Source of the DNA: Mesoaciditoga lauensis cd-1655R = DSM 25116
Lineage (GTDB): Bacteria; Thermotogota; Thermotogae; Mesoaciditogales; Mesoaciditogaceae
Length of the DNA stretch: 44,633 nt
Assembly (NCBI RefSeq): GCF_000745455.1
Contig: NZ_JQJI01000018.1
Location: 1 to 44,633 of the forward strand
Direction of reading: 5' to 3'
Below, piece by piece: positions 1-43,541 of the stretch. Made by a program: the position numbers and the translations under genes. Under the pieces are notes generated by a model, which worked only from the letters and a program-made list of their open reading frames with translations, did not search any database and had not been told where the DNA came from. Numbering within the stretch: the first letter of the stretch is position 1; each line of letters opens with the position of its first letter.

Positions 1-116
1 AAAGCGAATCTAACAGGACGTTTGTATGCAGCGGGCTCTGTTATGAGCATCTTGTATGGGTATACGTCTGAATCAGTTTTGACAAAACTTCAAAAAATTC
101 TTTCAACGTGAGGTTT
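1..116. repeat. Structured dispersed repeat, copy A (cut by the window edge)
   Basis: Bases 1-116 match 5434-5549 with only two differences seen (57 and 113). The copy holds the second apical hairpin and the whole right arm of the element, so the left half lies outside the window. The match continues about 20 bases beyond the foot of the stem, into the run ending in CAACGTGAG, so the copied unit is larger than the hairpin. It is in the same orientation as copy B. Confidence 0.93.
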
Positions 117-5254: not shown

Positions 5255-5351
5255 TATTTCTTTGTAAAAGATCATATAAGAATTTCAAGAGTGAATTCGT
5301 GCTGGCTTGTGTTTCAAATTAATCATGCTTCTCTCTTCCTTTCTCTCTTCT

Positions 5352-5549
5352 TTTTTTGAAGTTTCTGTCAAAACATATGAAGACGCCATACAAGATGCGA
5401 AATAACAGAGTTGGAGGCACAGGACGTGCCGAGAAAGCGAATCTAACAGGACGTTTGTATGCAGCGGGCTCTGTTATGAGCATCTTGTATGGATATACGT
5501 CTGAATCAGTTTTGACAAAACTTCAAAAAATTCTTTCAACGTGAGATTT
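5352..5549. repeat. Structured dispersed repeat, copy B (complete)
   Basis: A long imperfect hairpin. The basal stem is 5352-5374 with 5509-5530 (22 bp, one bulged C at 5365). A short GACG/CGTC pairing follows (5382-5385 with 5498-5501). The central stems are 5388-5398 with 5480-5490 and 5402-5410 with 5469-5477. The apex (5411-5468) holds a hairpin GGCAC-aggac-GTGCC at 5416-5430 and a weak one AAC-aggac-GTT at 5445-5455. The stretch of about 115 bases at the right matches copy A almost base for base. An open frame crosses it by chance and does not look like a protein. The gap 5289-5661 contains little else beyond promoters. Confidence 0.92.
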
Positions 5550-5615
5550 TTTTACCTTCTTAAACCCGACGCATATCAAGAGTTGCATCATTTTCACCTT
5601 TTATCATGTTAATGG

Positions 5616-5624
5616 TGGTAGAAT
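5616..5624 (+). promoter_or_regulatory. Extended -10 promoter candidate upstream of udk
   Basis: TGGTAGAATT (TGn followed by TAGAAT at 5619-5624) lies 38 bases before the udk start, with only a weak -35. It has the same form as the candidates before rpsO and the yitT-like gene. Confidence 0.35.
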
Positions 5625-5661
5625 TTAAAGGTATAGAGCATGAAATGAAGGAGAGAAGAAT

Positions 5662-6288
5662 ATGAGTATTTTTGTTGCCATCGTCGGAGGTAGTGGTGCT
5701 GGCAAAACCACAGTCGCAAAGGAAATTGTAGGCCATTTTAAAGAAAAAGCCATATGTCTTAACATGGATAATTATTACAAGGATTTGGAAGATGGTATGG
5801 ATCCGCGGGAAGTGAATTTCGATTCTCCATCCGCTTTCGACTTCGAACTTTTTTTCAAACACCTTCAAACTCTGAAAAATGGTGAAGATATAGAGGTCCC
5901 AACTTACAGCTTTGTAACTTATCGAAGAAATTCTTCACAGACCGTGCACATCTCTCCAGCAGAACTTGTGGTTGTGGAAGGTATTTTAGTACTCCATGAT
6001 GAAAAGATAAGAAAGCTTTTCGATCTCAGTATATACGTTGATGAAGATGCGGATGAAAGGCTTATAAGAAGAATAGAGCGAGATACCAAAGAAAGAGGAA
6101 GATCCGTTGATTCGATCATATCTCAATACAGAAAGTTCGTCGCCCCCGCTTTTAGAAGTTTCATAGAGCCTCAAAAATACAAATGCGATATCATATTACC
6201 TCGCGGTGGCGAAAACAAGAACGGCCTTTCAATGATAATGGGAGCCCTCGAAAAAATGATGAACCATGGAGAGAAAAAGATTTTTTAA
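5662..6288 (+). CDS. udk: Uridine kinase
   Basis: 208 residues, a normal length for uridine/cytidine kinase, which makes UMP or CMP in pyrimidine salvage. The P-loop GGSGAGKTT is at about 9-17. It is followed by NMDNYYKD, the FDSPSAFDFELFFKHL segment that leads to the substrate pocket, the VVEGILVLHD strand (Walker B region) and the RLIRRIERDTKERGR lid. AAGGAGAG precedes the ATG. It opens the long rightward housekeeping series. Confidence 0.93.
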   Translation: MSIFVAIVGGSGAGKTTVAKEIVGHFKEKAICLNMDNYYKDLEDGMDPREVNFDSPSAFDFELFFKHLQTLKNGEDIEVPTYSFVTYRRNSSQTVHISPAELVVVEGILVLHDEKIRKLFDLSIYVDEDADERLIRRIERDTKERGRSVDSIISQYRKFVAPAFRSFIEPQKYKCDIILPRGGENKNGLSMIMGALEKMMNHGEKKIF

Positions 6289-6342
6289 CGTGGTAAAATA
6301 CTTTGAAAGCTTAAAAAACAAAATTGGAAAGGATGAAGAAAA

Positions 6343-7380
6343 TTGATTTCTACAATTACGATGAAGTGGGACGGAACATCTTTAGAACTCATCGATCAAA
6401 GAAAACTCCCTCATGTTGAAGAATACGTGAAATGCCAAACATCCGGTTGCGTAGCCGATGCGATAAAAAAGATGATAGTTAGAGGAGCTCCAGCCATAGG
6501 CGCATCTGCCGCATTTGGATACGTTTTGGGAGCAATAGAAAACAGAAAAGATTTAAACGTTGAAACCATGGAAAAAGTGAAAGATAAGCTCGCCAACACA
6601 AGGCCAACGGCCGTTAACCTTTTTTGGGCGCTGGAAAGAATGCATAAAAGATTTCTCTCAGCCATCTCTGAAAATTCTGATGATAACGCCATAATAAACG
6701 TTCTAAACGAGGAAGCTGAAAGGATCGCGAATGAAGATATACAGGTAAACAAACAAATGGGAAATCTTGGGCAAGAACTCCTTCCAGAAGATGCAACGGT
6801 TATAACCCACTGTAACGCTGGAGCGCTTGCCACCGTAGATTACGGAACCGCTGTGGGAGTCATCCATGCTGCGTTGGACCATGGGAAAACAATACATGCT
6901 TACGTTGATGAAACACGACCTTACCTTCAAGGCGCGCGTTTAACGGCATGGGAGCTGATGAAATTGGGTGTTGATACCACATTGATATGCGACAACATGG
7001 CAGGATGGGTTATGAAAACACGCAAAGTTGACGCGATAATAGTAGGAGCAGATAGAATAGCCGCAAATGGAGACACGGCAAACAAGATAGGAACATATTC
7101 ATTGGCCTCTTTGGCAAAAAAGCATGGTGTAAAAGTGTACGTGGCGGCCCCACTTTCAACGATAGACACGAAGATCAAAAGCGGTAGCGAGATTCCCATA
7201 GAAGAGCGTTCACATGAAGAAGTGACACATGTTCAAGGAGTGAAGATAGCTCCTGATGGTGTTAAGGTGTACAATCCGGCATTTGACGTTACTGATGCCG
7301 AAATGATAGATGCGATAATAACCGAAAAAGGGATTTTAAGATACCCCTACACCGAATCGATAAAGAAACTCTTTGAGTGA
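6343..7380 (+). CDS. mtnA: S-methyl-5-thioribose-1-phosphate isomerase
   Basis: 345 residues. The enzyme converts methylthioribose-1-phosphate to the ribulose form in methionine salvage; relatives include eIF2B-type subunits. Visible signatures are DQRKLPHVEEYVKC, the phosphate-binding MIVRGAPAIGASAAFGY, the catalytic Cys in THCNAGALATV and the catalytic Asp in VGADRIAANGDTANKIGTY. TTG at 6343 has AAAGGATG upstream and gives the family N-terminus; ATG at 6361 is the alternative. No other methionine-salvage gene is nearby. A related ribose-1,5-bisphosphate isomerase role is less likely given the MtnA-type length and motifs. Confidence 0.92.
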   Translation: MISTITMKWDGTSLELIDQRKLPHVEEYVKCQTSGCVADAIKKMIVRGAPAIGASAAFGYVLGAIENRKDLNVETMEKVKDKLANTRPTAVNLFWALERMHKRFLSAISENSDDNAIINVLNEEAERIANEDIQVNKQMGNLGQELLPEDATVITHCNAGALATVDYGTAVGVIHAALDHGKTIHAYVDETRPYLQGARLTAWELMKLGVDTTLICDNMAGWVMKTRKVDAIIVGADRIAANGDTANKIGTYSLASLAKKHGVKVYVAAPLSTIDTKIKSGSEIPIEERSHEEVTHVQGVKIAPDGVKVYNPAFDVTDAEMIDAIITEKGILRYPYTESIKKLFE

Positions 7381-7396
7381 TGTTGGGAGGTATGAG

Positions 7397-7843
7397 TTGC
7401 GCGTTAATCCAGCGGGAAACGATCCTTCTCATTCGATAAAGAATGAGAAAAAAATAAAGGGTTCTCATGGAAGATATTCAAAGGTGGAGAATAAAGGCTT
7501 CGCCGACTTTTTGGTTGAAGAAGAAGAGCGGGATATTTCTGCCTTGATGGATGACATAATGCGGCAGGGAAATGAATTCTCCCGTTCTCCCACCGAAGAG
7601 AACTTCGAAAATTACAAGAAAAAGGTCAAAGAGTTCTTGAAGTTAATAGAGAAGAGACTGTACAGGATTAACGAACTCACATCCATTGAAGAGCGAAGGG
7701 CAAAGTTGTACTTCATAGTTGAAAAAGTTGACAAAGAACTTGAGGAAATATCCAAGAAACTTTTTGAAGCAGAGCGTTCGACTCTTTTTTACGCTTCAAA
7801 AATAGGAAGGATAAACGGCCTTTTGATGGATATTTACAGATGA
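7397..7843 (+). CDS. yaaR: YaaR/DUF327-family protein
   Basis: 148 residues, mostly helical and charged. The segment DFLVEEEERDISALMDDIMRQGNEFSRSPTEENFENYKKKVKEFLKLI is typical of the YaaR (DUF327) family, whose molecular role is unknown. TTG at 7397 is chosen because GGGAGG ends six bases before it; an earlier TTG at 7373 would overlap mtnA. The stop overlaps the holB start in ATGATGG. The order yaaR - holB - ricT is also found in Firmicutes, which supports the call. Confidence 0.75.
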   Translation: MRVNPAGNDPSHSIKNEKKIKGSHGRYSKVENKGFADFLVEEEERDISALMDDIMRQGNEFSRSPTEENFENYKKKVKEFLKLIEKRLYRINELTSIEERRAKLYFIVEKVDKELEEISKKLFEAERSTLFYASKIGRINGLLMDIYR

Positions 7844-8829
7844 TGGAAAGCTTAGACACGATCGTCAAGCAAGTGAAATCGCTTGTAGAAGCGGGAACGG
7901 CCACGCGCTTGATCTTAAATGCAAAAGGAACCTTGTTGAAGAAGGAATTTTTAAAAAAGCTCTTCGAGACGGCGGAAAAAAAGGATGTCTCGTATGATGT
8001 TTTATGGTTAAACGGTGAAAATGAAAAGATAAAGATAGAAGATGCCAGACGGGTAAGCAATTTTTTAAGCTTTAGCCCGTCGCAGGCGAAACATAAATAC
8101 GTCATCTCTGAAGAGTTCATCAATGCCACTCCTGAAGCGGTAGCCGCTCTTTTGAAGATCACAGAAGAACCACCTGAGTTCGCGGTTTTTATTTTTTTTA
8201 CTTCAAACCCTGCCCAATTGCTTCCAACGATACGAAGCAGGTTTACGGTTTTTACGCTGAATGTCGACGCTAAAGGACTGGTGGAAAATAAGATTGTAGA
8301 GAAGATAAAGGGAACCGTTCTTGAATCTCTTCTAGGAAGCCCTGAAAATGCTCTTTACATTTCGAAGAATTTTGAGAGCTTAAAAGCGTTATTTGACGAA
8401 TCAAAAGATACGTTTTCGACACTTAAATTGATCGAAGAAAAGGTAAATCATGATGAAGAAATATCCAATTTTGAAATATCGCTTCTTGCGGAAAGACTTT
8501 TTCTCTTTTTGAAAAGAGAAGAGATGGTGGATGTTTACCAAGGAATAAAGGGCATCTTAAATGCCAAGAATTCTTCGATGCTCTTTAAAGCGTTTTTAGA
8601 TGCGGCTATCGTTATATTCCAAGATCTTACGATCTTGAAGAAAACGAGTTATTGGAAGGGAATAAAGCGCGTTCCTTACATAGAGTACTATGTGGATATG
8701 AGTTGTCCAACACGAGAAGAGATGGAATGGCTTTTAAAAGTTGGAAACAAGGAGTATTATGCAAAGGCAAATGCCGATGTGGGAGTTTTTTTGTTGTTAT
8801 CAAAATTAGTTATGCTTAAAGGGAAGTGA
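7840..8829 (+). CDS. holB: DNA polymerase III delta' subunit-like protein
   Basis: 329 residues, a clamp-loader subunit relative. Conserved parts are VISEEFINATPEAVAALLKITEEPPE (sensor/Walker B region of clamp-loader proteins) and FTSNPAQLLPTIRSRFTVF. There is no P-loop near the N-terminus, and the usual SRC motif reads SRF, so this subunit is probably ATPase-dead and structural, as delta' often is. No CxnCxxC zinc module was seen. It lies between yaaR and ricT. Confidence 0.82.
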   Translation: MMESLDTIVKQVKSLVEAGTATRLILNAKGTLLKKEFLKKLFETAEKKDVSYDVLWLNGENEKIKIEDARRVSNFLSFSPSQAKHKYVISEEFINATPEAVAALLKITEEPPEFAVFIFFTSNPAQLLPTIRSRFTVFTLNVDAKGLVENKIVEKIKGTVLESLLGSPENALYISKNFESLKALFDESKDTFSTLKLIEEKVNHDEEISNFEISLLAERLFLFLKREEMVDVYQGIKGILNAKNSSMLFKAFLDAAIVIFQDLTILKKTSYWKGIKRVPYIEYYVDMSCPTREEMEWLLKVGNKEYYAKANADVGVFLLLSKLVMLKGK

Positions 8830-8833
8830 TTTT

Positions 8834-9679
8834 TTGAATATATACGGTGTATCATTCGATAGAGTTGGAAAAGTTCATAAATTTTTATCTGAGGAAGAGT
8901 TCAAACGCGGCGAAATGGTCATAGCCGAAAGTGAGTTTGGAATAGAACTCGGAGAGATTGTGAAGGTTTTTAAAGATGACGCTCAAGAGGAAAAACCTGA
9001 AAAATCCATATTGAGGAAGGCAACTTTTGACGATATGGATGTTCAAACTCAAAATGAAAAAGATGCAAAAGTCGCGTTGAAAATATCAAAAGAGAAGGTT
9101 TTAGAACACGATCTGCCCATGAAGATGCTACGGGCAAAGTACATTTTGGATAGATCCAAACTCGTGTTTTTCTTTTCTGCGGATGGTCGAGTGGATTTTA
9201 GGGCTTTGGTCAAAGAACTTGCAACGGTTTTCAAAACGCGAATAGAACTTCGCCAGATAGGTATAAGAGATGCGGCTAAGATAATAGGTGGAATAGGCTT
9301 GTGCGGCATGCAAACGTGCTGTTCAAGATTTGAAAGGGATTTTAAAAGCATAACTTTGAAATATGCCAAAGCGCAACAGCTGATGATAAACCCTTCGAAA
9401 ATCTCAGGAGCTTGTGGAAGGCTTTTGTGTTGTTTAGCCTTCGAAAACGACAATTATCTGGAGATCTTGAAAGACATTCCGGATGTCGGAGATAAAATCG
9501 AATACGAAGATGTCCAATACGTTGTGAGTGAACTTAACATATTTCATAAAACGCTTAAGGCAAGGAATGCGGAGGGCAAAATGATCGTTTTGCCATTTGA
9601 TGAAGTAATAAGACTTCTGAAAAAAGATGATGAAAACAAGAAAAACAAGGAGGAAGAAGAGTGCGATTCGAACTCCTAA
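8834..9679 (+). CDS. ricT: PSP1-domain protein RicT (YaaT)
   Basis: 281 residues. The PSP1 core covers most of the protein; its conserved Cys clusters are visible as GLCGMQTCCSRF and GACGRLLCCLAFE. In Bacillus subtilis RicT acts with RicA and RicF in an Fe-S-containing complex that helps RNase Y mature mRNAs. No RicA or RicF gene is in this window. TTG 8834 follows GGGAAGTGAT. The end overlaps tgt by 19 bases. A Lys/Glu-rich tail of about 20 residues follows the domain. Confidence 0.88.
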   Translation: MNIYGVSFDRVGKVHKFLSEEEFKRGEMVIAESEFGIELGEIVKVFKDDAQEEKPEKSILRKATFDDMDVQTQNEKDAKVALKISKEKVLEHDLPMKMLRAKYILDRSKLVFFFSADGRVDFRALVKELATVFKTRIELRQIGIRDAAKIIGGIGLCGMQTCCSRFERDFKSITLKYAKAQQLMINPSKISGACGRLLCCLAFENDNYLEILKDIPDVGDKIEYEDVQYVVSELNIFHKTLKARNAEGKMIVLPFDEVIRLLKKDDENKKNKEEEECDSNS

Positions 9680-10800
9680 AAAAATCGGGTGAAGCACGGA
9701 ACACGATTTTGCATCTCACCCATGGCGATGTTGAAACACCGGTTTTCATGCCGGTTGGTACCAACGGAGCCGTGAAGATGTGTACCCATGATTGTGTGAA
9801 AAAAGCGGGAAGTCAAATAGTTCTTGCAAATGCTTTTCACCTTTATTTACGCCCTGGTCTTGACGTTTTGAATAGCTTTGGCGGTCTTCATAAATTCGCA
9901 TCTTGGGACATTCCAATTCTCACGGACAGTGGAGGCTTTCAAGTGTTTAGCCTTTCAAAGCATGTGAAAGTTGATGATGAAGGTGTTACATTCCGCTCAC
10001 CTTTGGATGGTTCAATCCATCGTTTTACTCCACAAAAGGTTGTAGAAATTCAAGAAACAATAGGATCAGATATAGCAATGGTTTTAGACGAGTGCTTGGC
10101 ACCAGGCAACGATGCAAAAGCCACGGAAAAATCCTTGAAACGTACGACAAAATGGGCAGAGAAAGCGTTAGAACTTCATACAAGACAAGATCAGGCTTTG
10201 TTTGGAATTACACAGGGTGGCTTTTTTAAAGATACAAGAATCGTAAGCACAAGGGAAATAACTTCAATGCCTTTTGACGGTTTTGGGATAGGTGGTCTAA
10301 GTGTTGGAGAGACATTTGAGAAGACGGTCGAAATGTTAGATGTTATAATGCCATTAATGCCAGAAAACAAGCCACGTTACCTTATGGGAGTGGGCGATCC
10401 TGTCTTGATGCTTGAGGCCATCGAAAGAGGTGTCGACATGATGGACTGTGTTTTACCAACGAGACTTGCCAGACACGGTGCCGTTTTCACCTCTCATGGA
10501 AGGCTGAACATAAAGTCGGCGGTTTACGCGTTAGATGACTCACCATTAGATCCGGAATGCGATTGTGAAGTTTGTCAAAATTATTCCAGGGGATACATTC
10601 ATCACTTATTCAAGAAAAAGGAATCTACCGCGATGATGTTTGCAACATATCACAACATTTATTTCTTGCACAAACTTATGGAAAAAACAAGGAATGCCAT
10701 TAAGAATGGGGAATTTTCTGAGTTCAAAAAAGATTTTTTGAAGAAATTCACAAGCAATAACGTGAAGCAAATGGCTCTTGAAAGAGGGGAATCGAAATAA
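9661..10800 (+). CDS. tgt: tRNA-guanine transglycosylase
   Basis: 379 residues. It exchanges G34 of GUN-anticodon tRNAs for preQ1 on the way to queuosine. Seen are TPVFMPVGTNGAVK, the substrate-binding DSGGFQVFSL, the nucleophile region GVDMMDCVLPTRLARHG and the zinc motif CDCEVC...H near the C-terminus (YSRGYIHHLFK follows). GTG 9661 follows AAGGAGGAAGA and lies inside the end of ricT. Length is normal for bacterial Tgt. No queuosine synthesis genes are nearby. Confidence 0.96.
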   Translation: MRFELLKKSGEARNTILHLTHGDVETPVFMPVGTNGAVKMCTHDCVKKAGSQIVLANAFHLYLRPGLDVLNSFGGLHKFASWDIPILTDSGGFQVFSLSKHVKVDDEGVTFRSPLDGSIHRFTPQKVVEIQETIGSDIAMVLDECLAPGNDAKATEKSLKRTTKWAEKALELHTRQDQALFGITQGGFFKDTRIVSTREITSMPFDGFGIGGLSVGETFEKTVEMLDVIMPLMPENKPRYLMGVGDPVLMLEAIERGVDMMDCVLPTRLARHGAVFTSHGRLNIKSAVYALDDSPLDPECDCEVCQNYSRGYIHHLFKKKESTAMMFATYHNIYFLHKLMEKTRNAIKNGEFSEFKKDFLKKFTSNNVKQMALERGESK

Positions 10801-10829
10801 AGATAAAGCTAAAAAAAGGCATCAAAAAA

Positions 10830-11960
10830 GTGGGATGGACAAGTCCGTGGATATACAAAAATGAAATACTCGAAATACCTCCTCATGAAGAAGGGGATAT
10901 ATGTGATGTTTTTGATTTTTCCAACAATTACGTTGGAAGAGGTTACATAAACGAAAGATCGTTCATAAGCGTTAGACTGTTGAGCCATTCACCTGAGAAA
11001 ATAAACAAGGAGTTTTTCTCAAGAAGAATCGAAGAAGCTCTCAAAAGAAGAGACGAATTCAGTGGCGCCTTTCGCGTTATTCATTCGGAAGCCGACGGCA
11101 TGCCCGGCGTTGTGGCTGATCTGTTTGGAAATCATCTTGTTATCCAGTTCAACACGCTGGGAATGGAAAGAAGAAAAGAAGAAATTCTGGATGCTTTTGA
11201 AGAGACGATAAAACTAGAAGGGATATTCGAAAAAAGTGAAGGAAGAGCGAGAAAAAGGGAAGGCTTGGAAGATTCTATTGGATGGATAAGGGGAAAAGGA
11301 GAAGAACTCATACCATTTCATATTGATGATGCAAGCTATTTTTCGGATACTAAAGGGCAAAAGACCGGCTTCTTCCTGGATCAAAGATTCAACGCGAAAG
11401 CGATAAGGGAATTTGCACGTGGAAATGTTCTTGATGCTTTTTGCTACACGGGTAACTTTTCCGTGAACGCTTTGATGTCTGGAGCGGATCGGGTTATATC
11501 GATAGATCGTTCCGAAAGGGCAAAAAAAGTCTACGAAAAAATCCTTAGAGCAAATGGCATAGGAAATGGAGAAAACAGATATGAATTTCTGGTGGGAAAC
11601 GTTTTCGATGAATTAAGAACTTTTGAAAAAAGAGGTCAGTTGTTTGATCTGATCATCCTAGATCCCCCGGCTTTTGCAAAGAGCAAAAAAGAGTTGTTAT
11701 CGGCGCTGAGGGGATACAAAGAAATAAACTTGAGGGCCATGAAGATTCTAAAAAATGGCGGATATCTGGCAACAGCCTCATGTTCCGCCGCACTAGATAG
11801 AAAAACTTTCCTAAATGTTGTGAAAGATGCGGCCTTTGATGCCCACAAAGCACTTAGAATAGTGCATTTTGGTTTTCAAAGCTACGATCATCCCGTACTT
11901 ATCGGAATGAAGGAAAGCGAATATTTAAAATTTTTCGTATTTGAAGTGGAGGCGATTTGA
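10830..11960 (+). CDS. PUA-SAM class I rRNA methyltransferase (RlmI/YwbD-like)
   Basis: At least 376 residues. An N-terminal PUA-type domain (SPWIYKNEILEIPPHEEGDICDV) is followed by a central domain and a Rossmann SAM-binding fold: VLDAFCYTGNFSVNAL, the acidic loop ISIDRSERAKK and the catalytic DLIILDPPAFAKSK. RlmI-type enzymes make m5C in 23S rRNA; other members target other positions, so the exact site is not assigned. GTG 10830 is the first standard start, but in-frame coding-like sequence (IKLKKGIKKVGW) precedes it. The true start may be a non-standard ATA at 10797. Confidence 0.85.
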   Translation: MGWTSPWIYKNEILEIPPHEEGDICDVFDFSNNYVGRGYINERSFISVRLLSHSPEKINKEFFSRRIEEALKRRDEFSGAFRVIHSEADGMPGVVADLFGNHLVIQFNTLGMERRKEEILDAFEETIKLEGIFEKSEGRARKREGLEDSIGWIRGKGEELIPFHIDDASYFSDTKGQKTGFFLDQRFNAKAIREFARGNVLDAFCYTGNFSVNALMSGADRVISIDRSERAKKVYEKILRANGIGNGENRYEFLVGNVFDELRTFEKRGQLFDLIILDPPAFAKSKKELLSALRGYKEINLRAMKILKNGGYLATASCSAALDRKTFLNVVKDAAFDAHKALRIVHFGFQSYDHPVLIGMKESEYLKFFVFEVEAI

Positions 11961-12976
11961 TGAACAAAGATGACGTGATGAATGTACTTTCCACGATAAA
12001 ATATCCTGGTTACTCTAAGAGTATAACGGACTTTAAAGTGGTAAAGGATGTGGAAATAAACGGGAATACCGTTGATCTGCTCTTAAATCTCGGAACGGCA
12101 GACGATAAAAAAAGAAAGATCATATACGATGAGATAAGAGAAAAACTTGGTGAAAAAGGTCTTGAAGTGAAAATATCGACCGTTCAAGAAAAGGGCACAA
12201 CGGTTGAACAAAAACATTACGTTTCAAGCGCGAAGAAAAGAATAGCCATTCTCAGTGCAAAAGGCGGAGTTGGTAAAAGCACTTTCGCAGTTTCTTTGGC
12301 CATAGCCATGAGCAAAATGGGGAAAAAAGTTGGGCTTTTTGACGCAGACGTCCATGGCCCCGATGTCCCAAGAATGTTGGGACTACAAAAACCTGCGCGC
12401 GCAGACAAAGAGAAAAACCTTATTCTTCCAAATGAAAGAGAAGGTATATATTCGATGTCATTGGGTTACGTTGTAGATCCAGAAACACCTGTTATATGGA
12501 AAGGCGCAATGGTTTCCAAGGCGATCGTGGAGCTCCTTCAATTCACAGCTTGGCCTGAAATGGACTATTTTATAGTGGATCTCCCACCCGGCACCGGAGA
12601 TGCGGCGTTGAGTATAAACCAAAATATGGATTTGGATGGGGCGATCATCGTAACGACCCCTAACTCGTTGGCTATAATGGATGCCGCAAGGGCAACGTCT
12701 TATTACAATCAGTTAGGTACCAAAGTGATAGGATTCGTGGAAAACAGTGGATACTTTGTCTGCGATGAATGTGGGGAAAAATCTTATCCATTTGGAAACA
12801 CAGAACCAATAGCGATAGAAACGCAATTGAAGGTCCCCTGTCTTGGCGTTTTGCCATTTGAACCGAAAGTGGAAGAAGCTGCTGATGACGGAAACCTCTT
12901 CTCAGCTTTGGATACCGAATTTTTCAAAGTGATGGCTTCCATCGCCGAAAAGATAGAAAGCGAATTATCGAATTAA
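11960..12976 (+). CDS. Mrp/NBP35-family Fe-S cluster carrier ATPase
   Basis: 338 residues. An N-terminal MIP18/DUF59 domain (about 1-75) is joined to a P-loop ATPase with the deviant Walker A motif [10 protein letters not shown], followed by [30 protein letters not shown] and the CxxC pair in [15 protein letters not shown]. Family members carry or insert [4Fe-4S] clusters as dimers. ATG 11960 is chosen over TTG 11957 because GTGGAGGCG is correctly spaced. It starts at the last base of the methyltransferase stop, so the two are coupled. Confidence 0.9.
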
Positions 12977-12989
12977 GGGGGTAATCCTT

Positions 12990-14705: not shown

Positions 14706-14706
14706 T

Positions 14707-16050: not shown

Positions 16051-16061
16051 AGGAGGCATAT

Positions 16062-16733
16062 ATGTCAAAGCAATACGTTGTCATAGGATTAGGAGAATTC
16101 GGAAAAAATTTGGCTAAGTACCTTCAAGATATGGGAAATGAGGTGTTGGCCATCGATGCTTCTGAAAGCACGGTGCAAAGCCTTTCATCGGATTTGACGT
16201 ATGTTGTTAGGGCTGATGCCACTTCACAAGAGGCTCTTGAAGCGTTGGGGGTCAAAAATTTCGATGTGGCCATAGTAAGTGTTGGAGGCCAGGATGTACA
16301 AGCTTCCATTCTTATAAGCTTGATTTTGAAGGATATGAAGATCCCAATGATAGTGGCAAGGGCAAGCAGCGGGCTCCATGGGCGCGTTCTTGAAAAAATC
16401 GGCGTGAATTTGGTGATATATCCCGAAAAGGAAATGGCCCTTGGTTTGGCCAAAAGACTTACGATGCCAAATGTAGTTGAAAAAGCCGTTGTGGCTGGGA
16501 ATTACAAGATATACGAAATAAAAACACCAGCAGCATTTAAAGATAAAAGTTTGGAAGAACTCAAACTCAACAAACGTTACGAAATGACTGTGATGCTTAT
16601 AAAAGACGCAGAAGATAAAATAGAATTTCCTTCAGCACAAACGATTTTAAATGAAGGAGAAACCATGATTGTTTTGAGCACAGATGAAGGAATGAAATCA
16701 TTTTCGGAGGATAACAACGATGGGGATATTTAA
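16062..16733 (+). CDS. TrkA/KtrA-type RCK regulatory subunit of K+ uptake
   Basis: 223 residues. An N-terminal RCK Rossmann fold with GLGEFGKNLAKYL and the nucleotide-ribose acidic residue (AIDAS, about 36-40) is followed by a TrkA_C domain (about 140-215). It forms a ring on the cytosolic face of the membrane partner and gates it with ATP/ADP or NAD(H). GGAGG lies 6 bases before ATG 16062, which is 11 bases after the membrane subunit. Its end overlaps ftsY by 14 bases. Confidence 0.92.
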   Translation: MSKQYVVIGLGEFGKNLAKYLQDMGNEVLAIDASESTVQSLSSDLTYVVRADATSQEALEALGVKNFDVAIVSVGGQDVQASILISLILKDMKIPMIVARASSGLHGRVLEKIGVNLVIYPEKEMALGLAKRLTMPNVVEKAVVAGNYKIYEIKTPAAFKDKSLEELKLNKRYEMTVMLIKDAEDKIEFPSAQTILNEGETMIVLSTDEGMKSFSEDNNDGDI

Positions 16734-17598
16734 TTTTTTCAAAAAAGGGTTGAAGAAAACCAAAGAAGGATTTTTTGGAAAAGCCATTTCGATATTAAAA
16801 GGTGGCATAGATGCGGAGAAACTTGAAGAAATAGAAGAGCTTTTGCTACTGGCAGATATAGGTCCCGAAACATCCAGTTACATAGTGGAAAATCTAAGAA
16901 AGCAAAAAGGAGAGCCGATAGAAGTTCTCAGGAACACGTTGCTTGACTTGCTTGGGAAAAGCGATAGCTTGAAATTTTCTGAAGAAGCTCCCACCATATA
17001 CACGTTGGTGGGGGTAAATGGTTCTGGAAAAACAACGACAGCCGGTAAGTTGGCGTGGAGATTCAAAAAAGAGGGAAAGAGAGTTTCTCTTGCGGCCGCG
17101 GATACCTTTCGCGCCGCTGCCATAGAACAATTAAAAGAATGGGGTAAGAGGGCGAATGTCCCAGTTATAGCGCATCAAATGGGTGCCGACGCGGGTGCCG
17201 TAGCGTACGATGCCGTGAATCATGCCATTTCAAACGATATAGATGTCGTGCTTATAGACACAGCTGGGAGACTACACACCAAGGATAATTTGATGCGAGA
17301 ATTGGAAAAAGTTCACAAAGTTATAAAAAAGATACGGCCAGATCAACCAACAGAAGTTTTGATGGTGTTGGATGCCACAATAGGCCAAAATGCCATCCAA
17401 CAGGCACGTATTTTCAACAAGAGCGTTGGCATAACTGGCATAGTCCTTACAAAGTTAGATGGAACGGCAAAAGGAGGAATGATCTTTTCCATAAAAAAAG
17501 AACTTGGCATTCCCGTAAAGCTTATTGGGGTTGGGGAAGGTGTTGAAGATCTTAAAGACTTCGAGGCAGAAGAGTTTGTGGATGCCATTTTGGAATGA
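16720..17598 (+). CDS. ftsY: Signal recognition particle receptor FtsY
   Basis: 292 residues. The SRP-type GTPase receives ribosome-SRP complexes at the membrane. The N domain (helical, about 1-85) precedes the G domain: VGVNGSGKTTTAGKLA (G1), AADTFRAAAIEQL, IDTAGRLHTKDNLM (G3), TKLDGTAKGG (G4) and LIGVGEGVEDLKDF (G5). It lacks the long acidic A domain of E. coli FtsY, like many short bacterial FtsY proteins; the Lys-rich first 18 residues may form the membrane-binding helix. Confidence 0.96.
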   Translation: MGIFNFFKKGLKKTKEGFFGKAISILKGGIDAEKLEEIEELLLLADIGPETSSYIVENLRKQKGEPIEVLRNTLLDLLGKSDSLKFSEEAPTIYTLVGVNGSGKTTTAGKLAWRFKKEGKRVSLAAADTFRAAAIEQLKEWGKRANVPVIAHQMGADAGAVAYDAVNHAISNDIDVVLIDTAGRLHTKDNLMRELEKVHKVIKKIRPDQPTEVLMVLDATIGQNAIQQARIFNKSVGITGIVLTKLDGTAKGGMIFSIKKELGIPVKLIGVGEGVEDLKDFEAEEFVDAILE

Positions 17599-17601
17599 AA
17601 G

Positions 17602-18594
17602 ATGGATAAGATATCTTCCATATTGATGGAAAAAATGCTTTCTGAAGAAGGCGAAAATGCCCTTCATCAAGCTAACGTGATACGACGATATGCGGAAAGC
17701 GGATGGACGAAGAAAAAGATGGAAATGGCTCTCGAAATGATAAATCCAAGCATGAGAGAGCTATGCGTCTTTTTTAACATATCCCCTTCTGATGCTGAAG
17801 ATATCGCAAAAAGAAGTGGGGTACCGCTTTCAAAATTGAGTTTCGTATGCATGCTTCTTGAACCAGCTTCTTATTTCCCCATGAACGATGAAACCCTATC
17901 TCTTTCAAGGGAAGTTGGCATCTTTTCAAAGAATTATTCCACTTTTTTAAAAGAATGGAAAAAAGCCTTGCGCTTTCATTCGGAATACGTGGATGACTTT
18001 TTAGATCTCTACATGCTGCTCTTTGGGAAAAGCGACAAGAGTATGAGTGATAATTCCGTCGTTGAGGATCTCATAAAACTTTTCAAAAGCAAGGATTTTC
18101 TTTCTTTAAGAGAAAGAGATGTGAAAGATTTTCAAGAGATCTACTCGGCTTTGCTTCCATCTGATAAAAGCAAAGTTGCCGAATCCCTAGCCGATTCATA
18201 CGTCAAAGGGGTATTTCTGAAAATTGACAGAAGAATGCTCATAGTGGATGGAAGCAATGTGGCCATGGTAGGAAAAGCAAATCCTGATTTGAATAACATA
18301 TTTCAAGCCTTCGACCTTGTTGGAAAGTTAAAAAAGGTGCCATGGCCATTTGCAATAGTGTTTGATGCTAATTTTCCTTACAAACTGAAAGGTTCTCAGA
18401 GAATCCTTTTTGAAAGGGAATTTCAAAAGCATCCTGCAGTTTATCTTCACTCGCCAGCAGATGAAAAGATTCTGGAGATGGCTTCTTGCCATCCTTCTTA
18501 CGTTTTAACGAATGACAGATACATGGATTACCCAAAGGTGGATTTTGTAAATTTGAGATTTGACGGGAAAAAGGTATGGGAAGATCGAAGGTGA
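17602..18594 (+). CDS. NYN/PIN-like nuclease domain protein
   Basis: 330 residues. The first about 205 are helical and not recognised. The C-terminal about 115 look like an NYN (Zc3h12a-type, PIN-like) ribonuclease domain. Acidic positions are seen in LIVDGSNVAMVG, IVFDANFP, SPADEKILEMA and VLTNDRYMDYP, in the order expected for the metal site. The ATG is 3 bases after the ftsY stop, so the two are co-transcribed. A role in RNA cleavage is inferred from the domain; the substrate is unknown. Confidence 0.65.
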   Translation: MDKISSILMEKMLSEEGENALHQANVIRRYAESGWTKKKMEMALEMINPSMRELCVFFNISPSDAEDIAKRSGVPLSKLSFVCMLLEPASYFPMNDETLSLSREVGIFSKNYSTFLKEWKKALRFHSEYVDDFLDLYMLLFGKSDKSMSDNSVVEDLIKLFKSKDFLSLRERDVKDFQEIYSALLPSDKSKVAESLADSYVKGVFLKIDRRMLIVDGSNVAMVGKANPDLNNIFQAFDLVGKLKKVPWPFAIVFDANFPYKLKGSQRILFEREFQKHPAVYLHSPADEKILEMASCHPSYVLTNDRYMDYPKVDFVNLRFDGKKVWEDRR

Positions 18595-18624
18595 ACGTAG
18601 AAATATCCTTTGGAGGCGAATGAA

Positions 18625-18945
18625 ATGTTTAAAAATGTGGATGTATTACAAAGCGCGATGAACGTTTCAACGTTGACTGCAAGGGTGATAGCCAACAACG
18701 TTGCCAATGCAAGCACTCCAAATTTCAAGGCAAGCTACGTTGTGCCAGTTGTGCACAGTAATCCCCTTCGCGTAGAAGGGAAGGTTGTAACCGATACGAA
18801 GAGTTCCATAGGTAATGATGGAAACAACGTAGATGTTAACGCTCAAATGGCCTTGCTTTCTGAAAATACGATGAGATACGAAGTTTTAACTCAACTCGCT
18901 TCTATGAGTTTCAAAAGATATTCTGATGTCTTAAAGGGAGTGTGA
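18625..18945 (+). CDS. flgB: Flagellar basal-body rod protein FlgB
   Basis: 106 residues, a rod protein in the periplasm exported by the flagellar secretion system. The N-terminal rod-family motif is visible as ARVIANNVANASTPNFKA (about 23-40), and the C-terminal helix as ENTMRYEVLTQLASMSFKRY. ATG 18625 is chosen because GGAGGCG (18612-18618) is six bases upstream. It is slightly short for FlgB, with the loss in the central variable part. It heads flgB-flgC-fliE. Confidence 0.92.
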   Translation: MFKNVDVLQSAMNVSTLTARVIANNVANASTPNFKASYVVPVVHSNPLRVEGKVVTDTKSSIGNDGNNVDVNAQMALLSENTMRYEVLTQLASMSFKRYSDVLKGV

Positions 18946-18951
18946 TAAACC

Positions 18952-19365
18952 TTGTCACTCTTTGATGCTATAGGTATATCTTCATCTGGAATGACAGCCC
19001 AGCAATTAAGAGTGGACGTCATATCCAACAACATAGCCAACGCGAACACGACAAGAACGCCGGAAGGTGGCCCCTATAGAAGGGAAATACCGATATTTGC
19101 CGAGCGTTTTGCGGCCACCATGAACGGTGTGGTTCCAAACGGTGTAAAAGTTGTCAAAGTGGTTGAAGATAAAGCACCATTTCAGAAGATCTACGATCCG
19201 ACCAATCCCGACGCCGATAAAGATGGATATGTCAAAATGCCAAATGTCAACGTTTTAAGGGAAATGGTGGATCTCATAGCTGCCCAAAGAAGCTACGAAG
19301 CGAACGCAACCGTTATTAGCAACGTTAAAGCCATGGCAAGTGCGGCCGTACAAATAGGGAGGTGA
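18952..19365 (+). CDS. flgC: Flagellar basal-body rod protein FlgC
   Basis: 137 residues. The rod motif reads LRVDVISNNIANANTTRTPEGGPYRRE near the N-terminus, and the C-terminal coiled region reads NVLREMVDLIAAQRSYEANATVI, both diagnostic of FlgC. TTG 18952 follows GGGAGTGTG. It ends inside the ribosome binding site of fliE. Confidence 0.95.
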   Translation: MSLFDAIGISSSGMTAQQLRVDVISNNIANANTTRTPEGGPYRREIPIFAERFAATMNGVVPNGVKVVKVVEDKAPFQKIYDPTNPDADKDGYVKMPNVNVLREMVDLIAAQRSYEANATVISNVKAMASAAVQIGR

Positions 19366-19370
19366 GAAAG

Positions 19371-19670
19371 TTGGTTGATGGAATAAACCCTATAAATCCC
19401 ATAAAACCCATTTCAGGCGCTGGGAATGTTCAGCCGACTCAAAAAAGTGGAACGGATTTTAAGAAGATCCTGGAAAATGCGATAAATAAGGTAAACGATA
19501 CCGTTAATAACGCGGAGAATCTGTCGAATGACTTCGCAACTGGAAAAACGTCAGACATTCACTCTGTTATCATAGCCGCTGAAAAGGCGGACATCATGTT
19601 GCAGCTGACCACGGAAGTTAGAAATAAAATCGTTGAAGCTTACAGAGAAATCATGAGGATGCAGATTTAG
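19371..19670 (+). CDS. fliE: Flagellar hook-basal body protein FliE
   Basis: 99 residues linking the MS ring to the rod. The C-terminal family segment is clear: ATGKTSDIHSVIIAAEKADIMLQLTTEVRNKIVEAYREIMRMQI. TTG 19371 with GGGAGGTG upstream is preferred to GTG 19362, which lies in that site. No fliF follows: the next gene points the other way and overlaps the fliE end by 20 bases, so the three-gene rod group stands alone here. Confidence 0.93.
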   Translation: MVDGINPINPIKPISGAGNVQPTQKSGTDFKKILENAINKVNDTVNNAENLSNDFATGKTSDIHSVIIAAEKADIMLQLTTEVRNKIVEAYREIMRMQI

Positions 19671-20730
19671 TAGGATTCTGCCTTACCTCGTATATCATGA
19701 TGATAAAACCAAGCAATATAGGTAGATAATACGTTATGAGTCGCCACATCAGCACACCGGTCATTACCGCAGTCTTACTTCCATAAATGGAAAGAACAGC
19801 GTAAAAACCACCTTCCACACCACCGGAAGATCCTGGAGTGGGAACGTAATACACGACAAAGGAAAGAAGAATAAATATCGCACTCAGATTCCAAAAGGAA
19901 AGATGAAAAGGCACAAGTGAAACCTGGGAAGAAATGATTATAGATCTGTACAAAATGTAGTAAAGCACCAGAAGATCAAGAACTCCCATACTTCCATCAA
20001 AGATCACAAGCCATGGCTTTTTTGTCCAAATGATTTTCATAGAATCGTAAAAACTGTCCAGCTTCTTTAAGAGGGTATCGAAAACTTCATCTGGGTTTTT
20101 CTTAAACACCCTTATTGCCCAGTTTACCATCTTCGATTTTCTTATCTTGCGAATGAAACTTTTTCCAAGATTTGGCACGAGAAAAAAGAAAACCATTCCA
20201 AGAGAGAATGCCACACTTAGCAATATGACAAGCCATATTGCTTTGCTTAGAAGAGGTATTCCCACTCGAATGTAAGGAAGATATTTGTTCATAAGCAAAA
20301 GTGATGAAAAAGACAAAAAGATCAACATGTTCGACCATCGTGTCAAGATAATGGCAGAAGAATTCTCAGCACTCATTCCCCATTTTGAAAGGTGCCATAT
20401 TTGGTAAGGCTGACCTCCTGCAGAAAATGGCGTGATGTACGTGAAAAAATATCCTAGAATGGAATTCCTCATCGCAACGCTCAATTTTACCTTCTCATTT
20501 AGGAAATAAGATAGCACTAAAATTCTGAGTGAATCTATAACAAAAATGAGACAAAACAAAATGAATCCTATCAGTATCTCCATAGGAGGAAAATCCTTAA
20601 TGCTTTTTACAACGTTGCCACTTTTTGAAAAGACCAATATAACAGCTATCACGGAAAAACTTGACAACGCCGCGATCAAAAGGTTTCTTAAAAGCTTCTT
20701 ATTTTGAGATTTATCGTTTTCTACTTCCAT
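19651..20730 (-). CDS. YbhN/AglD-family membrane protein (flippase-like, UPF0104)
   Basis: 359 residues with about eight hydrophobic segments. The pattern FFTYITPFSAGGQPYQIWHLSKWGMS and the later VYYVPTPGSSGGVEGGFYAVL are typical of the lysylphosphatidylglycerol synthase transmembrane region/AglD family. Members move or modify lipids or lipid-linked sugars. The neighbouring glycosyltransferase, whose end overlaps this start by 10 bases, suggests a role in a glycolipid or surface glycan (inference). Confidence 0.78.
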   Translation of the reverse strand: MEVENDKSQNKKLLRNLLIAALSSFSVIAVILVFSKSGNVVKSIKDFPPMEILIGFILFCLIFVIDSLRILVLSYFLNEKVKLSVAMRNSILGYFFTYITPFSAGGQPYQIWHLSKWGMSAENSSAIILTRWSNMLIFLSFSSLLLMNKYLPYIRVGIPLLSKAIWLVILLSVAFSLGMVFFFLVPNLGKSFIRKIRKSKMVNWAIRVFKKNPDEVFDTLLKKLDSFYDSMKIIWTKKPWLVIFDGSMGVLDLLVLYYILYRSIIISSQVSLVPFHLSFWNLSAIFILLSFVVYYVPTPGSSGGVEGGFYAVLSIYGSKTAVMTGVLMWRLITYYLPILLGFIIMIYEVRQNPTKSASS

Positions 20731-21581
20731 TTTGGGTGCCTCGGATCGACCACTTTACCTTTTACGCCATGTATACCATCTTCAAAACCATGAAAAGCGT
20801 AAGGCTTTGTCTGAGGAGAAACGTAGGCCCAAATGTATCTGTCTATGAAAAAATAACCTTTTAAAACGGTGTAAATGAACTTAGATTCTCGCGTGGCGTT
20901 AAGCGCGTTTCTGAATATGTAATAAACCTTCCAGGATGGAATAGCGGGTTTGGAAAAGGGAAATCGGAACATTCTCTTTTGACGGATCCAATCTTTATGT
21001 TCTATGAGGCTTGAATGTATTTTTATGAGTTTCAAACCGTGATGCCTTATCCTAACTGAGTATTCGTAGTCATCCGCATATATGAAAAAACCCTCATCCG
21101 GAAGCCCCACTTTTTTCACGGTTTTAGCACTTACCGTAAAGCCCACAAAGGTTCCTATTCTAGCCAGACTGGTCTTCTCTTTTGGAATGGCATTTGGAAT
21201 TTTTACGAGTTTGCTTAAAAGTGCTCCCGTACTTTCGTCTTGATCGAATTTTTTGATGTATTTTTCCAGTTCCTCAAGCGAATTTCTGTATGGCAGAGCA
21301 TCGTCATCCATCATCCAAACCCAATCGGCTCCGCGATCGATCGCTTCTTTCAAACCGCGAGAAAAACCGCCTGATCCACCTAAATTTTCATTCAATCTTT
21401 TTACGGTAACTATCTTTTCTTTCTTTTGCAGATCGGAAAGAAATTCTGACGTTGAATCTGTGCTTGCGTTGTCAACGACCAGGATCTCATCCGGTAATCT
21501 GCTCTGACTTAAAAGGGCTTTCATGTTCTTTTTCAACCACTCAACCCTATTGTAAGTAACTACAAGAGCCGTTATTTTCAT
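20721..21581 (-). CDS. Family 2 glycosyltransferase
   Basis: 286 residues. The GT-A fold is visible in MKITALVVTYNRVEWLKKNMKALLSQ, ILVVDNASTDST, and the metal-binding WVWMMDDDALP (about 92-102). GFFIYADDYEYSVRIRHHG follows, as in rhamnosyl- or galactofuranosyl-transferase-like members (GlfT2/RfbF type). No membrane helix is clear. It lies between the YitT-like and YbhN-like genes. Acceptor and donor cannot be told from sequence. Confidence 0.88.
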   Translation of the reverse strand: MKITALVVTYNRVEWLKKNMKALLSQSRLPDEILVVDNASTDSTSEFLSDLQKKEKIVTVKRLNENLGGSGGFSRGLKEAIDRGADWVWMMDDDALPYRNSLEELEKYIKKFDQDESTGALLSKLVKIPNAIPKEKTSLARIGTFVGFTVSAKTVKKVGLPDEGFFIYADDYEYSVRIRHHGLKLIKIHSSLIEHKDWIRQKRMFRFPFSKPAIPSWKVYYIFRNALNATRESKFIYTVLKGYFFIDRYIWAYVSPQTKPYAFHGFEDGIHGVKGKVVDPRHPKWK

Positions 21582-21602
21582 CTCGAAAGTTCTTCCTCCA
21601 TC

Positions 21603-22469
21603 TTAGAATTTTTTTATGTCGCTGAATCCTTCCCCGTAGGCTTTTTCGATCTCTCCAACAACTATGAATGCCTGGGGATCTATCTTTCTTATTACATGCA
21701 AAAGATTTGAAAGCTCTCTTCTTCTAACGATGGTTAATATCATTCTTCTTTGGGTCCCTGTGTATCCCCCAATCGTTGGAATGTATGTTACGCCTCGTTC
21801 TAATTTGTTTATTATGTAATCGGCGATCAAATCGTTCTTCTCGGATATGATCATAACTTGTTTCGACATCTCCATACCACGCATGAGGAAGTCTATTGCA
21901 AGGCCGTTTAAAATGATGGCAAGCAATGAATAAAGCCCCACGTTCAGCCCAAACTTAAAACCGGCTAATACACCAATAGAAACATCTGCTATCAAGACTC
22001 CTTGACCAAGTGGAACTGAAAGAAATTTGTTCATGAATTTGGCTATTATGTCGGTTCCGCCTGTGCTACCGTTCTGAGAAAACGCCAGAGCCATGCCAAA
22101 AGCTGCAATGATGTCCCCAAAGATGGTTGCCAACATTAAATCTCCACCAGTATAGATGGGGAAATGCACCATTCTGTCTAAAAAATCAACGAAGAAAGAA
22201 AGCAAAAACGTTGAGTATATGGTTTTGAAACTGAAATCTACTCCAACAAGCATTAAAGAAAGCGCTATAAGCCCGCCGTTTATCAAATACATCCACACGC
22301 CAACCGGCAGGTTTATAACACCGTGGAGAACGATCGCCAGTCCACTTGCTCCACCCGCTGCTATGTTGTATGGGACCAAGAAAGACACTATAGCCATGGC
22401 TGTTATCAGGTCACCAAGCGATATGATGGTATATTCCTTTACAAAGTTAAAAACGATCTTCTTCTGCAC
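21603..22469 (-). CDS. YitT-family membrane protein (DUF161 + DUF2179)
   Basis: 288 residues. About five hydrophobic segments form the N-terminal YitT membrane domain (ITAMAIVSFLVPYNIAAGGASGLAIVLHG and FSQNGSTGGTDIIAKF). A soluble DUF2179 domain (about 205-288) follows, ending with DPQAFIVVGEIEKAYGEGF. The transport role of the family is unknown. GTG 22469 follows GGAGGGAG. It is the first gene of a three-gene leftward unit. Confidence 0.88.
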   Translation of the reverse strand: MQKKIVFNFVKEYTIISLGDLITAMAIVSFLVPYNIAAGGASGLAIVLHGVINLPVGVWMYLINGGLIALSLMLVGVDFSFKTIYSTFLLSFFVDFLDRMVHFPIYTGGDLMLATIFGDIIAAFGMALAFSQNGSTGGTDIIAKFMNKFLSVPLGQGVLIADVSIGVLAGFKFGLNVGLYSLLAIILNGLAIDFLMRGMEMSKQVMIISEKNDLIADYIINKLERGVTYIPTIGGYTGTQRRMILTIVRRRELSNLLHVIRKIDPQAFIVVGEIEKAYGEGFSDIKKF

Positions 22470-22496
22470 TTTCTCCCTCCTTTTTTGTTCCTCTCA

Positions 22497-22505
22497 ATTC
22501 TAACA
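22497..22505 (-). promoter_or_regulatory. Extended -10 promoter candidate of the yitT-like gene
   Basis: The minus strand reads TGTTAGAATT, that is TGn plus TAGAAT, about 28 bases before the GTG start. No convincing -35 is seen. It has the same form as the rpsO and udk candidates. Confidence 0.4.
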
Positions 22506-22610
22506 AAAAAAAGGCATTAAGGAAAATTTTAAAAAGTTTCGGATAGTCTAATTATCTCAACCTGTGCGTCAATGTTACAAAGTATTTCAAAAAAGGATTA
22601 AACCTCACCC

Positions 22611-22785
22611 TCGAAGTACTTGTCAGAACATATGAGCTCTCCCATCTGAAGATTCAAAATATGAGGTTGAGAGGCACAGGATGTGCTGAGAAAGCGAAGC
22701 ACTCACGGACGAGTGTCTGAGAATGCCTCATATTTTGAATTGAAAGGCGGAAAGAAGAGCGAATCCGTTCTGACAAGTACTTCGA
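22611..22785. repeat. Structured dispersed repeat, copy C (diverged)
   Basis: A 19-bp perfect basal stem (22611-22629 with 22767-22785), then ACATATGA as in copy B, a 5-bp stem (22636-22640 with 22756-22760) and a 15-bp central stem (22652-22666 with 22726-22740). The apex has GGCAC-aggat-GTGCT (22673-22687), the conserved GAGAAAGCGAA (22688-22698), and a hairpin CACTC-acggac-GAGTG (22700-22715). Stem sequences differ from copy B, yet pairing is kept. Confidence 0.9.
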
Positions 22786-23086
22786 AAAACACCTTAGCCG
22801 CTTGGAAAGCGGTAGTGAAATGTCAAAGGATGATATTATTCGAAATATGTTACCCTCACAATCCCGTAGAGAACCTTTTATTCAAGGTAAGCTTTTACTT
22901 TTGATTTACGATCAATGGAAGCGAATTATCAAATATTTAAACCATTTTTAAATATTTCTCACATTATAAAGAAGTATCCTTGAGAGAAAACTAAAGATAA
23001 AACGAGATTTTGAAAGAAAAAAAGAGATTTAACTCTATAATCACATCTCAACGGACATATGACATAAAAAGAATGTTATTTTAGAC
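22786..23086. other. AT-rich intergenic stretch with an 11-bp inverted repeat
   Basis: No gene was recognised between copy C and the ROK promoter. The notable element is a perfect inverted repeat, AAATATTTAAA at 22931-22941 and TTTAAATATTT at 22947-22957, with a five-base spacer. A weaker pair, TTGAT at 22901 and ATCAA at 22911, lies upstream. Either could be a protein-binding site or chance in AT-rich DNA. Confidence 0.4.
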
Positions 23087-43073: not shown

Positions 43074-43541
43074 ATGATGGGTAGTAAGTAGTGAACAGGA
43101 GGTAATCAGGTAACTTCTCAAAAGGGGTTCATGTCAAGCACAGAATCTCGTTTTGTACTGCTATCTTATTGAAGATCCTGAATAGTTTCTTCGAAACTTG
43201 TAGAATGAGTGTGTTTAGGAAAGGTAGGTATTGTTCAATGGGAGATCATCGGGGTAAAAGACAGAGACTCGTAACTTGATTAGCAAAGAGGAAGAAACTA
43301 AACGTTTGAAGTCTAACGACAAAGGCATCATATGGACGCTGAGTGAGTTATCAGGCCATAATGTAAATGAACACATAGGTAGCCTTGTAAAAAAGTTTAA
43401 ACACCACGAGTTGGGCTCTTTCGTCCCGATCGAAAGCAGCATAAACGCATGAATGCGGGTGGAGGGATGTATTCATCCTGAGGGGGGTAGTAGCGGCGGC
43501 ACGATGATAAGGATATGCCATTCAACTGGAAAAAACCTTTC
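43074..43541. other. Gene-poor stretch rich in hairpins; unassigned
   Basis: No convincing gene. On the + strand there are several stems: AGTTTC-ttc-GAAACT (43187-43201), TTTCG/CGAAA (about 43421-43437), CGCAT-ga-ATGCG (about 43446-43457), GGATG-tatt-CATCC (about 43466-43479) and GGCA/TGCC (about 43498-43519). The part 43450-43505 is G-rich compared with the flanks. A frame of about 60 codons ending at 43452 reads like protein in places, so a decayed gene or mobile element remains possible. Confidence 0.35.

Follow-up and report, generated by a model that had tools for sequence, protein, structure and literature searches.

The window analysed here, a contig of Mesoaciditoga lauensis (NZ_JQJI01000018.1) of 44,633 nucleotides, is one whole contig (C14) of a 65-contig genome totalling 2,172,469 bases. 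It carries two copies, B and C, of a repeat with long stems, and the locus raises the question of whether the paired stems are kept for a folded RNA, for cruciform DNA, or for neither. A preliminary description had proposed that B and C belong to one family in which compensatory changes preserve the stems. Both copies are located where that description put them: the covariance model used to place the cores (R1), whose own alignment includes both copies, delimits units at positions 5357-5525 and 22612-22784. By direct reading, the stem pair TGTCAAAAC/GTTTTGACA in one copy corresponds to TGTCAGAAC/GTTCTGACA in the other, the ACATATGA box and the apical GAGAAAGCGAA are present in both, and the apical pair GGCAC..GTGCC/GGCAC..GTGCT is also present in the sequence. 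The best reading, which we hold with about even confidence, is that the copies carry an RNA borne by a miniature inverted-repeat transposable element (MITE), related to the Rfam family TwoAYGGAY (RF01731, clan CL00106) and binding CsrA.

The family comprises about 240 copies in the 2.17 Mb genome, and the apical motif GTGYYGAGAAAGCGAA, with up to two mismatches, has 248 matches in the genome versus 9 for the reversed motif. Three subfamilies, B, C and D, were recognized. Subfamily B has at least 41 direct matches, each of at least 97 bases and at least 90% identity, and subfamily C at least 40 matches of 91-100% identity; both counts are lower bounds, as 40 of 210 and 40 of 241 candidates were scored, respectively. 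We read 132 nearly full cores (25 B, 67 C and 40 D), 30 of the 162 unique segments having been dropped for coverage or identity (chimeras are among the dropped). The proposal of one repeat family stands as to the common fold, but copies B and C belong to different subfamilies. B and D are in tandem at many loci, with half hairpins linked via pyrimidine tracts. At seven loci (L069, L072, L075, L077, L080, L084 and L086), a B 5' half-hairpin is followed by a pyrimidine tract and a full D hairpin, and the breaks in these loci recur at a small number of points close to the tip of the hairpin.

Copy B folds with a minimum free energy of -83.1 kcal/mol (z -8.55) and copy C with -80.0 kcal/mol (z -8.39), and none of 200 shuffles folded as well in either case. 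The pairing was assessed in an alignment of 44 rows (A1), five of them from relatives. It joins the window copies B and C to 42 of the 54 cores that had been picked for diversity among 96; the 12 omitted picks include two odd-length C cores and the near-palindromic D copy L007:2339-2508, which has no internal loop. Among the 53 pairs of A1, 32 are changed on both sides. Of 2330 cells, 97.5% are paired, as compared with 83.7% in 500 shuffles and 29-40% with slid partners; double-change cells number 357 against 122 in the shuffles, and covariation is 0.452 against 0.204. None of the 500 shuffles reached the observed paired share, double changes or covariation. One of the five measures, the number of further pair types, showed no excess (58 versus 60.8 shuffled). 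Altogether, the fold is conserved via paired changes, with covariation over 44 copies far above chance, and the computational part of the check that the preliminary description had proposed, namely a covariance model, a search of the genome and relatives and covariation statistics, found further copies with compensatory changes. One fold is kept across the three subfamilies and, in a diverged form, in other families of Thermotogota (see below). It consists of a long stem, an internal loop AUAUGA/GAAUC with tandem G.A, and a pair of apical hairpins linked by GAGAAAGCGAA; the internal loop (ATATGA/GAATC in DNA letters), the linker and the two apical hairpins are strongly conserved in A1. By inspection of A1, tandem G.A in the stem is found in AUAUGA/GAAUC and additionally, in C and D, in GCGA/GAGC, for which the pairing geometry is predicted. 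In the D cores of the own genome, two adjacent outer-stem bases are highly variable on both arms and mostly mismatched to each other.

The two apical hairpins (termed P5 and P6) point to CsrA. Hairpins of the Csr type, C[A(N)GGAX]G, were found at P5 in 115, at P6 in 123 and at both in 107 of the 132 own cores, while 2 of the 3986 window hairpins outside the copies are of this type (note that P6 was allowed a 3-pair stem and the background was required to have 4 pairs). Hexaloops in both hairpins are confined to D; pentaloops occur in B and in P5 of C. In RsmZ, the stem-loops to which RsmE binds are described as presenting A(N)GGAX above a closing C-G pair, N being absent from the 5-nt loops (PMC4005645). 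The features of the copies in the window are as follows, all on the plus strand.

1-116, plus strand: copy A, the 3' part of a B-type core truncated by the contig start (98% identity to 5434-5549; R1 match 1-92, 59.2 bits, 5' cut).
5287-5315, plus strand: 3' arm left over from a D-type core, immediately upstream of copy B (AAGAGTGAATTCGTGCTGGCTTGTGTTTC resembles the D 3' arm, by inspection).
5357-5525, plus strand: copy B, B-type RNA-like core (R1 172.0 bits, E 2.9e-40; for the fold, see above).
5416-5430, plus strand: apical hairpin P5 of copy B, GGCAC[AGGAC]GTGCC, with a Csr-type pentaloop (direct reading, RsmZ loop comparison and hairpin census).
5431-5441, plus strand: linker GAGAAAGCGAA of copy B, strongly conserved (A1).
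5445-5455, plus strand: apical hairpin P6 of copy B, AAC[AGGAC]GTT, with a Csr-type pentaloop (direct reading and hairpin census).
22555-22577, plus strand: left terminal inverted repeat of the copy C element, TCTCAACCTGTGCGTCAATGTTA (for the genome-wide pattern, see below).
22612-22784, plus strand: copy C, C-type RNA-like core (R1 175.7 bits, E 3.5e-41).
22673-22687, plus strand: hairpin P5 of copy C, GGCAC[AGGAT]GTGCT (direct reading and A1).
22688-22698, plus strand: linker GAGAAAGCGAA of copy C, strongly conserved (A1).
22700-22715, plus strand: hairpin P6 of copy C, CACTC[ACGGAC]GAGTG, with an ANGGAX hexaloop (direct reading, A1 and RsmZ loop comparison).
22798-22812, plus strand: small hairpin CCGCTTGGAAAGCGG, frequent downstream of C cores and without a convincing T-run (reading and scan of C copies).
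22847-22874, plus strand: right end of the copy C element, type-E (ATGTTACCCTCACAATCCCGTAGAGAAC), like the right ends of L042, L050 and L085 by inspection.

The positions given for B and C in the preliminary description were right, but each turned out to be a portion of a longer unit. C cores lie in units with terminal inverted repeats (TIRs), ACTCAnnTTGTGCGT, and this pattern matches 169 times genome-wide versus none in the control. Among 40 elements with both ends (39 C and 1 D), 22 are flanked by exact repeats of 4-6 base pairs (bp), where shuffles lead one to expect about one. The C-terminus of a transposase (DDE_Tnp_1) extends into the TIR at five contig ends, and a genome of the same genus (G001) has a 386-aa transposase frame with the right end; in G003, candidate TIRs flank a transposase frame of only 263 aa. 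The related transposase is IS4/IS701-like, yet below the NCBIfam cut-offs. The C-type unit thus has the terminal inverted repeats, target-site duplication and related autonomous element with the same ends that characterize MITEs. The ends of copy C itself are of two kinds, type-1 on the left (from 22555) and type-E on the right (to 22874); they are unlike, and a target-site duplication was not demonstrated for this copy. Near the contig end, at window positions 43784-44485, there is also an IS4-like DDE transposase frame, whose protein is distinct from the transposase matching the repeat ends. Copy B is neighboured by rpsO and a uridine kinase-type gene, and copy C by a YitT gene and a ROK gene, each a divergent pair.

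Cores lie between ends of several kinds, among them IS4/IS701-like ends with duplications of 4-6 bp, type-E ends with duplications of roughly 10 bp and, in another genus, ends that are associated with terminators and have duplications of 21-32 bp. Of the 10 type-E loci tested, five have both ends (including L022, with a B core), and three of these five show repeats of 7-13 bp, two having one mismatch. The terminator-associated ends surround the homologous core in G057 and G058, where, by inspection, six of nine loci have a near-exact repeat of 21-32 bp that covers an entire terminator-like hairpin; of the remaining loci, one is without a right end and two are without a repeat. The hairpin-duplicating loci of these two genomes (L264, L289, L294, L298, L302 and L265) are sited at terminator-like hairpins. 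In G015 (L287, L291 and L296), the homologous core lies between yet another end type, about GTCTAAAAAGTC/GACTTTTTAGAC. By the preliminary description, copies found only as decaying duplicates of an insertion sequence end would refute the proposal. For individual copies this partly holds, as complete C copies are MITEs; however, cores related to theirs also lie between ends of other types and in further bacterial families. The retention of related cores by elements whose ends differ would also be expected if the fold were needed for transposition, as a stalled-replication signal or as an RNA regulating the transposase, with the Csr-type loops binding something else. Against such a role, core-less elements with the same TIRs bear 6-bp flanking repeats in three of four cases (L106, L115 and L141, not L144), and the core is therefore unnecessary for type-1 mobility. 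We consider a transposition role improbable.

Beyond the host genome, genome_contigs (84,980 species, possibly without the own genome) was scanned with an exact pattern, which found 58 stretches. Of these, 56 are in assemblies of Mesoaciditogaceae or Thermotogae, and the two singletons elsewhere are near the estimated chance number of about 2. The exact pattern had no match in viral_contigs, and carriage by phages was rejected on this ground. R1 matched in 13 of 103 genomes of the phylum; seven of them lie outside Mesoaciditogaceae and gave 1 to 19 R1 matches each in a closer search. A cross-family alignment fitted to the model retained 25 sequences of less than 90% identity after 11 of 64 rows had been dropped (10 opposite-strand and 1 partial). 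In this set, 92% of the cells are paired versus 63% in shuffles and 35-43% with slid partners, and double-change cells number 395 versus 112. Between lineages, whole stems of the tip hairpins are replaced, while the loops mostly keep the form A(N)GGAX. Of the 25 sequences, 20 contain the bare string C[A(N)GGAX]G twice, 4 contain it once and 1 lacks it. In L262, L275 and L282, two homologous cores are placed in opposite orientation, about 200-400 bp apart.

Concerning the affiliation of the fold, the preliminary description knew of no named RNA family with this shape. TwoAYGGAY does have it; the tested own copies score below the gathering threshold of that family (43 bits), and copy C is unmatched. 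The homologues L262 (52.2 and 50.6 bits) and L282 (45.5 bits) exceed the threshold, and a search of the phylum found at least 17 matches over threshold in 4 of 103 genomes, all of one genus other than that of the host; its filters were strict and missed two G015 copies that pass in direct scoring. In the own genome, 24 out of 46 candidates were scored under strict filters, and no match at threshold was found. A plain Rfam assignment was rejected for copies B and C; the sole gathering-level match in the window is a group II intron piece (43236-43366; RF02003, 61 bits). Judging from the sequence comparison, the window copies appear to be diverged relatives of TwoAYGGAY and are not filed as members.

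The genomic context bears on whether the core RNA meets CsrA. csrA adjoins fliW in the own genome, and CsrA was found in 18 of 21 genomes, the own included; of seven genomes with R1 or TwoAYGGAY matches that were examined additionally or again, six have it. Binding of CsrA by the core RNA appears slightly more probable than its absence. As CsrA sites act within mRNAs in other bacteria (PMC4894983), the cores might instead be cis-acting elements of mRNA leaders or trailers that impose CsrA or stability control on neighbouring genes. The 132 cores are mostly intergenic, as such a role would have it, with median distances of 123-244 bp and 6 of 132 inside a long open reading frame (crude gene call). 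The orientation of the elements was counted at 85 insertion sites in the retrieved loci, each with a gene on either side no more than 900 bp away. D- or B-bearing elements are antisense to co-directional neighbours 24 to 4 (p 2e-4), while C-only elements have no orientation bias (13 to 11). The antisense bias argues against a general cis role, since most co-directional mRNAs beside D and B elements would carry the complement, and we regard this explanation as quite unlikely.

A number of observations weigh against a TwoAYGGAY-related RNA that binds CsrA. In direct scoring against TwoAYGGAY, the D copies L080 and L083 reached 28.6 and 22.0 bits, both below threshold; in a relaxed scan, copy B scored 18.1 bits (E 2), which is at chance level, and copy C had no match. 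R1 gives true copies 30-46 bits even on their opposite strand, so that a score below about 46 proves only a similar palindrome. R1 alone as proof for distant genomes was accordingly dropped. Outside the family, scores above about 46 bits were found only in G060 and G024; in the other distant genomes, homology rests on shared apical motifs and TwoAYGGAY scores. No GGA is present in the P5 loop of 9 of 25 B copies (seven ACGAT and two ACGAC), and in G008, with 25 R1 matches, CsrA was not found in an assembly that is 87% complete. A sigma-70 type scan of three stretches found no sense-strand promoter; a weak TTACAA-N17/18-TTAAA[TC] string, picked after inspection, is present in 28 of 67 C copies. 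A hairpin followed by at least four T is seen in 15 of 67 C copies, and no convincing terminator was found. On the basis of these scans, a free-standing small RNA (sRNA) gene was tentatively rejected. Lastly, single changes within subfamilies yield G.U and A.C at similar numbers (142 versus 125 cells; 69 versus 57 events, p 0.33), and private mutations are only mildly fewer in the core (38 in 172 sites) than in the flanks (48 in 141; p 0.05).

The near equality of G.U and A.C within the genome implies that copies drift after insertion, and selection on every copy was rejected on this ground and on that of the private mutations. A further 154 cells within subfamilies are broken by transversions; double changes within subfamilies are mostly compensated (42 plus 3 G.U versus 6 broken). 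In 31 C elements, the mean non-consensus share is 1-9% in the core depending on the region (1.1% in the 5' arm of the outer stem, 3.2% in the apical part and 8.7% in the 5' arm of the inner stem), 8-11.5% in the flanks and 6-12% in the TIRs, and much of this regional variation is old. Individual copies drift almost neutrally; the fold is maintained in the amplifying lineages, not in each dead copy. Between lineages, G.U exceeds A.C (48 versus 16 cells in the 25 non-redundant sequences), albeit in a structure-fitted alignment that leans this way, and RNA seems favoured over cruciform DNA at this level. Thus, from the proposal that a folded RNA or cruciform is under selection, what remains is a fold kept by paired changes, probably as RNA between lineages, and selection on each copy is not supported.

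The same data invite a rival explanation, a plain MITE with a palindrome maintained at the DNA level: intrastrand template switching and arm exchange would keep the arms alike, the RNA would have no function, and the loops would be inherited unselected. The near-perfect palindromic copy (L007) and the arm-swapped or chimeric copies (L095, L009, L029, and L061 in G001) indicate exchange at the DNA level, which can mimic compensation within one genome. TIRs and target duplications, individual copies without strand bias and window copies that are at chance level or unmatched with Rfam are likewise in line with this explanation. On the other hand, covariation is as good in the short hairpins P5 and P6 as in the long arms, and the tandem-GA mismatches persist, though arm exchange would erase them. 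Between lineages, the G.U:A.C ratio is 3:1 and the loops remain mostly A(N)GGAX while the stems are replaced, and homologues pass the Rfam RNA model. We regard the plain MITE as rather unlikely and conservation at the RNA level as quite probable.

For the MITE-borne, CsrA-binding RNA, we infer the following course. The drawn (GGA) strand would be transcribed, the two A(N)GGAX loops would bind two faces of one CsrA dimer, and the RNA would titrate CsrA in trans as a decoy, the dosage of which would grow with transposition. The mobility of the MITEs would account for the copy number, and selection on the fold would act on amplifying lineages, not on each dead copy. A role as a CsrA sponge can be proposed only tentatively. 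Bolder, and doubtful, is the general proposal that TwoAYGGAY-type CsrA-binding RNAs are repeatedly captured cargo of unrelated MITEs in Thermotogota, that transposition sets the genome-wide dosage of the sponge, and that TwoAYGGAY elsewhere may be mobile cargo too. If true, a mobile element distributes binding sites for a global RNA-binding regulator and, far from being mere junk, may spread a regulatory signal or soak it up. The 2010 table of TwoAYGGAY lists human gut, gamma-Proteobacteria and Clostridiales (PMC2864571), and a 2014 paper predicts binding of CsrA, notes the tandem-GAs and refers to validation as work in progress (PMC4333381). The portions of these two papers dealing with TwoAYGGAY give the CsrA link as a prediction and no tested role. 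Its homologues as dispersed cargo of several MITE types amount to a natural experiment, with many copies per genome in CsrA-bearing hosts, and make the prediction directly testable.

In the open-licence literature, we found no paper combining MITE, noncoding RNA, transposase and CsrA, and, by title and the start of the abstract, none on a CsrA sponge repeat or transposable element of this kind. Three known systems can be compared with the family. TwoAYGGAY shares the long stem, the tandem pair of apical hairpins, their A(N)GGAY loops and the tandem-GA in the stem, but the own copies number about 240, are MITE-borne, have pentaloops in B and C, and score below threshold or not at all. Like the core, sRNAs of the CsrB/RsmZ type have GGA hairpins with A(N)GGAX loops and stems closed by a C-G pair (PMC4005645). 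They differ in that RsmZ has four stem-loops whereas each own unit has two hairpins, for which binding is predicted, and in that the own element is dispersed in hundreds of mobile copies, with neither a convincing promoter nor a convincing terminator found. The QMITE sRNAs of Coxiella, as presented in a review of MITE-derived sRNAs (PMC10969869) whose main text contains no occurrence of CsrA, have TIRs, short target duplications and a stable hairpin in common with the family. In contrast to QMITE, the core described here covaries, and related cores are common to elements with different ends and to different bacterial families.

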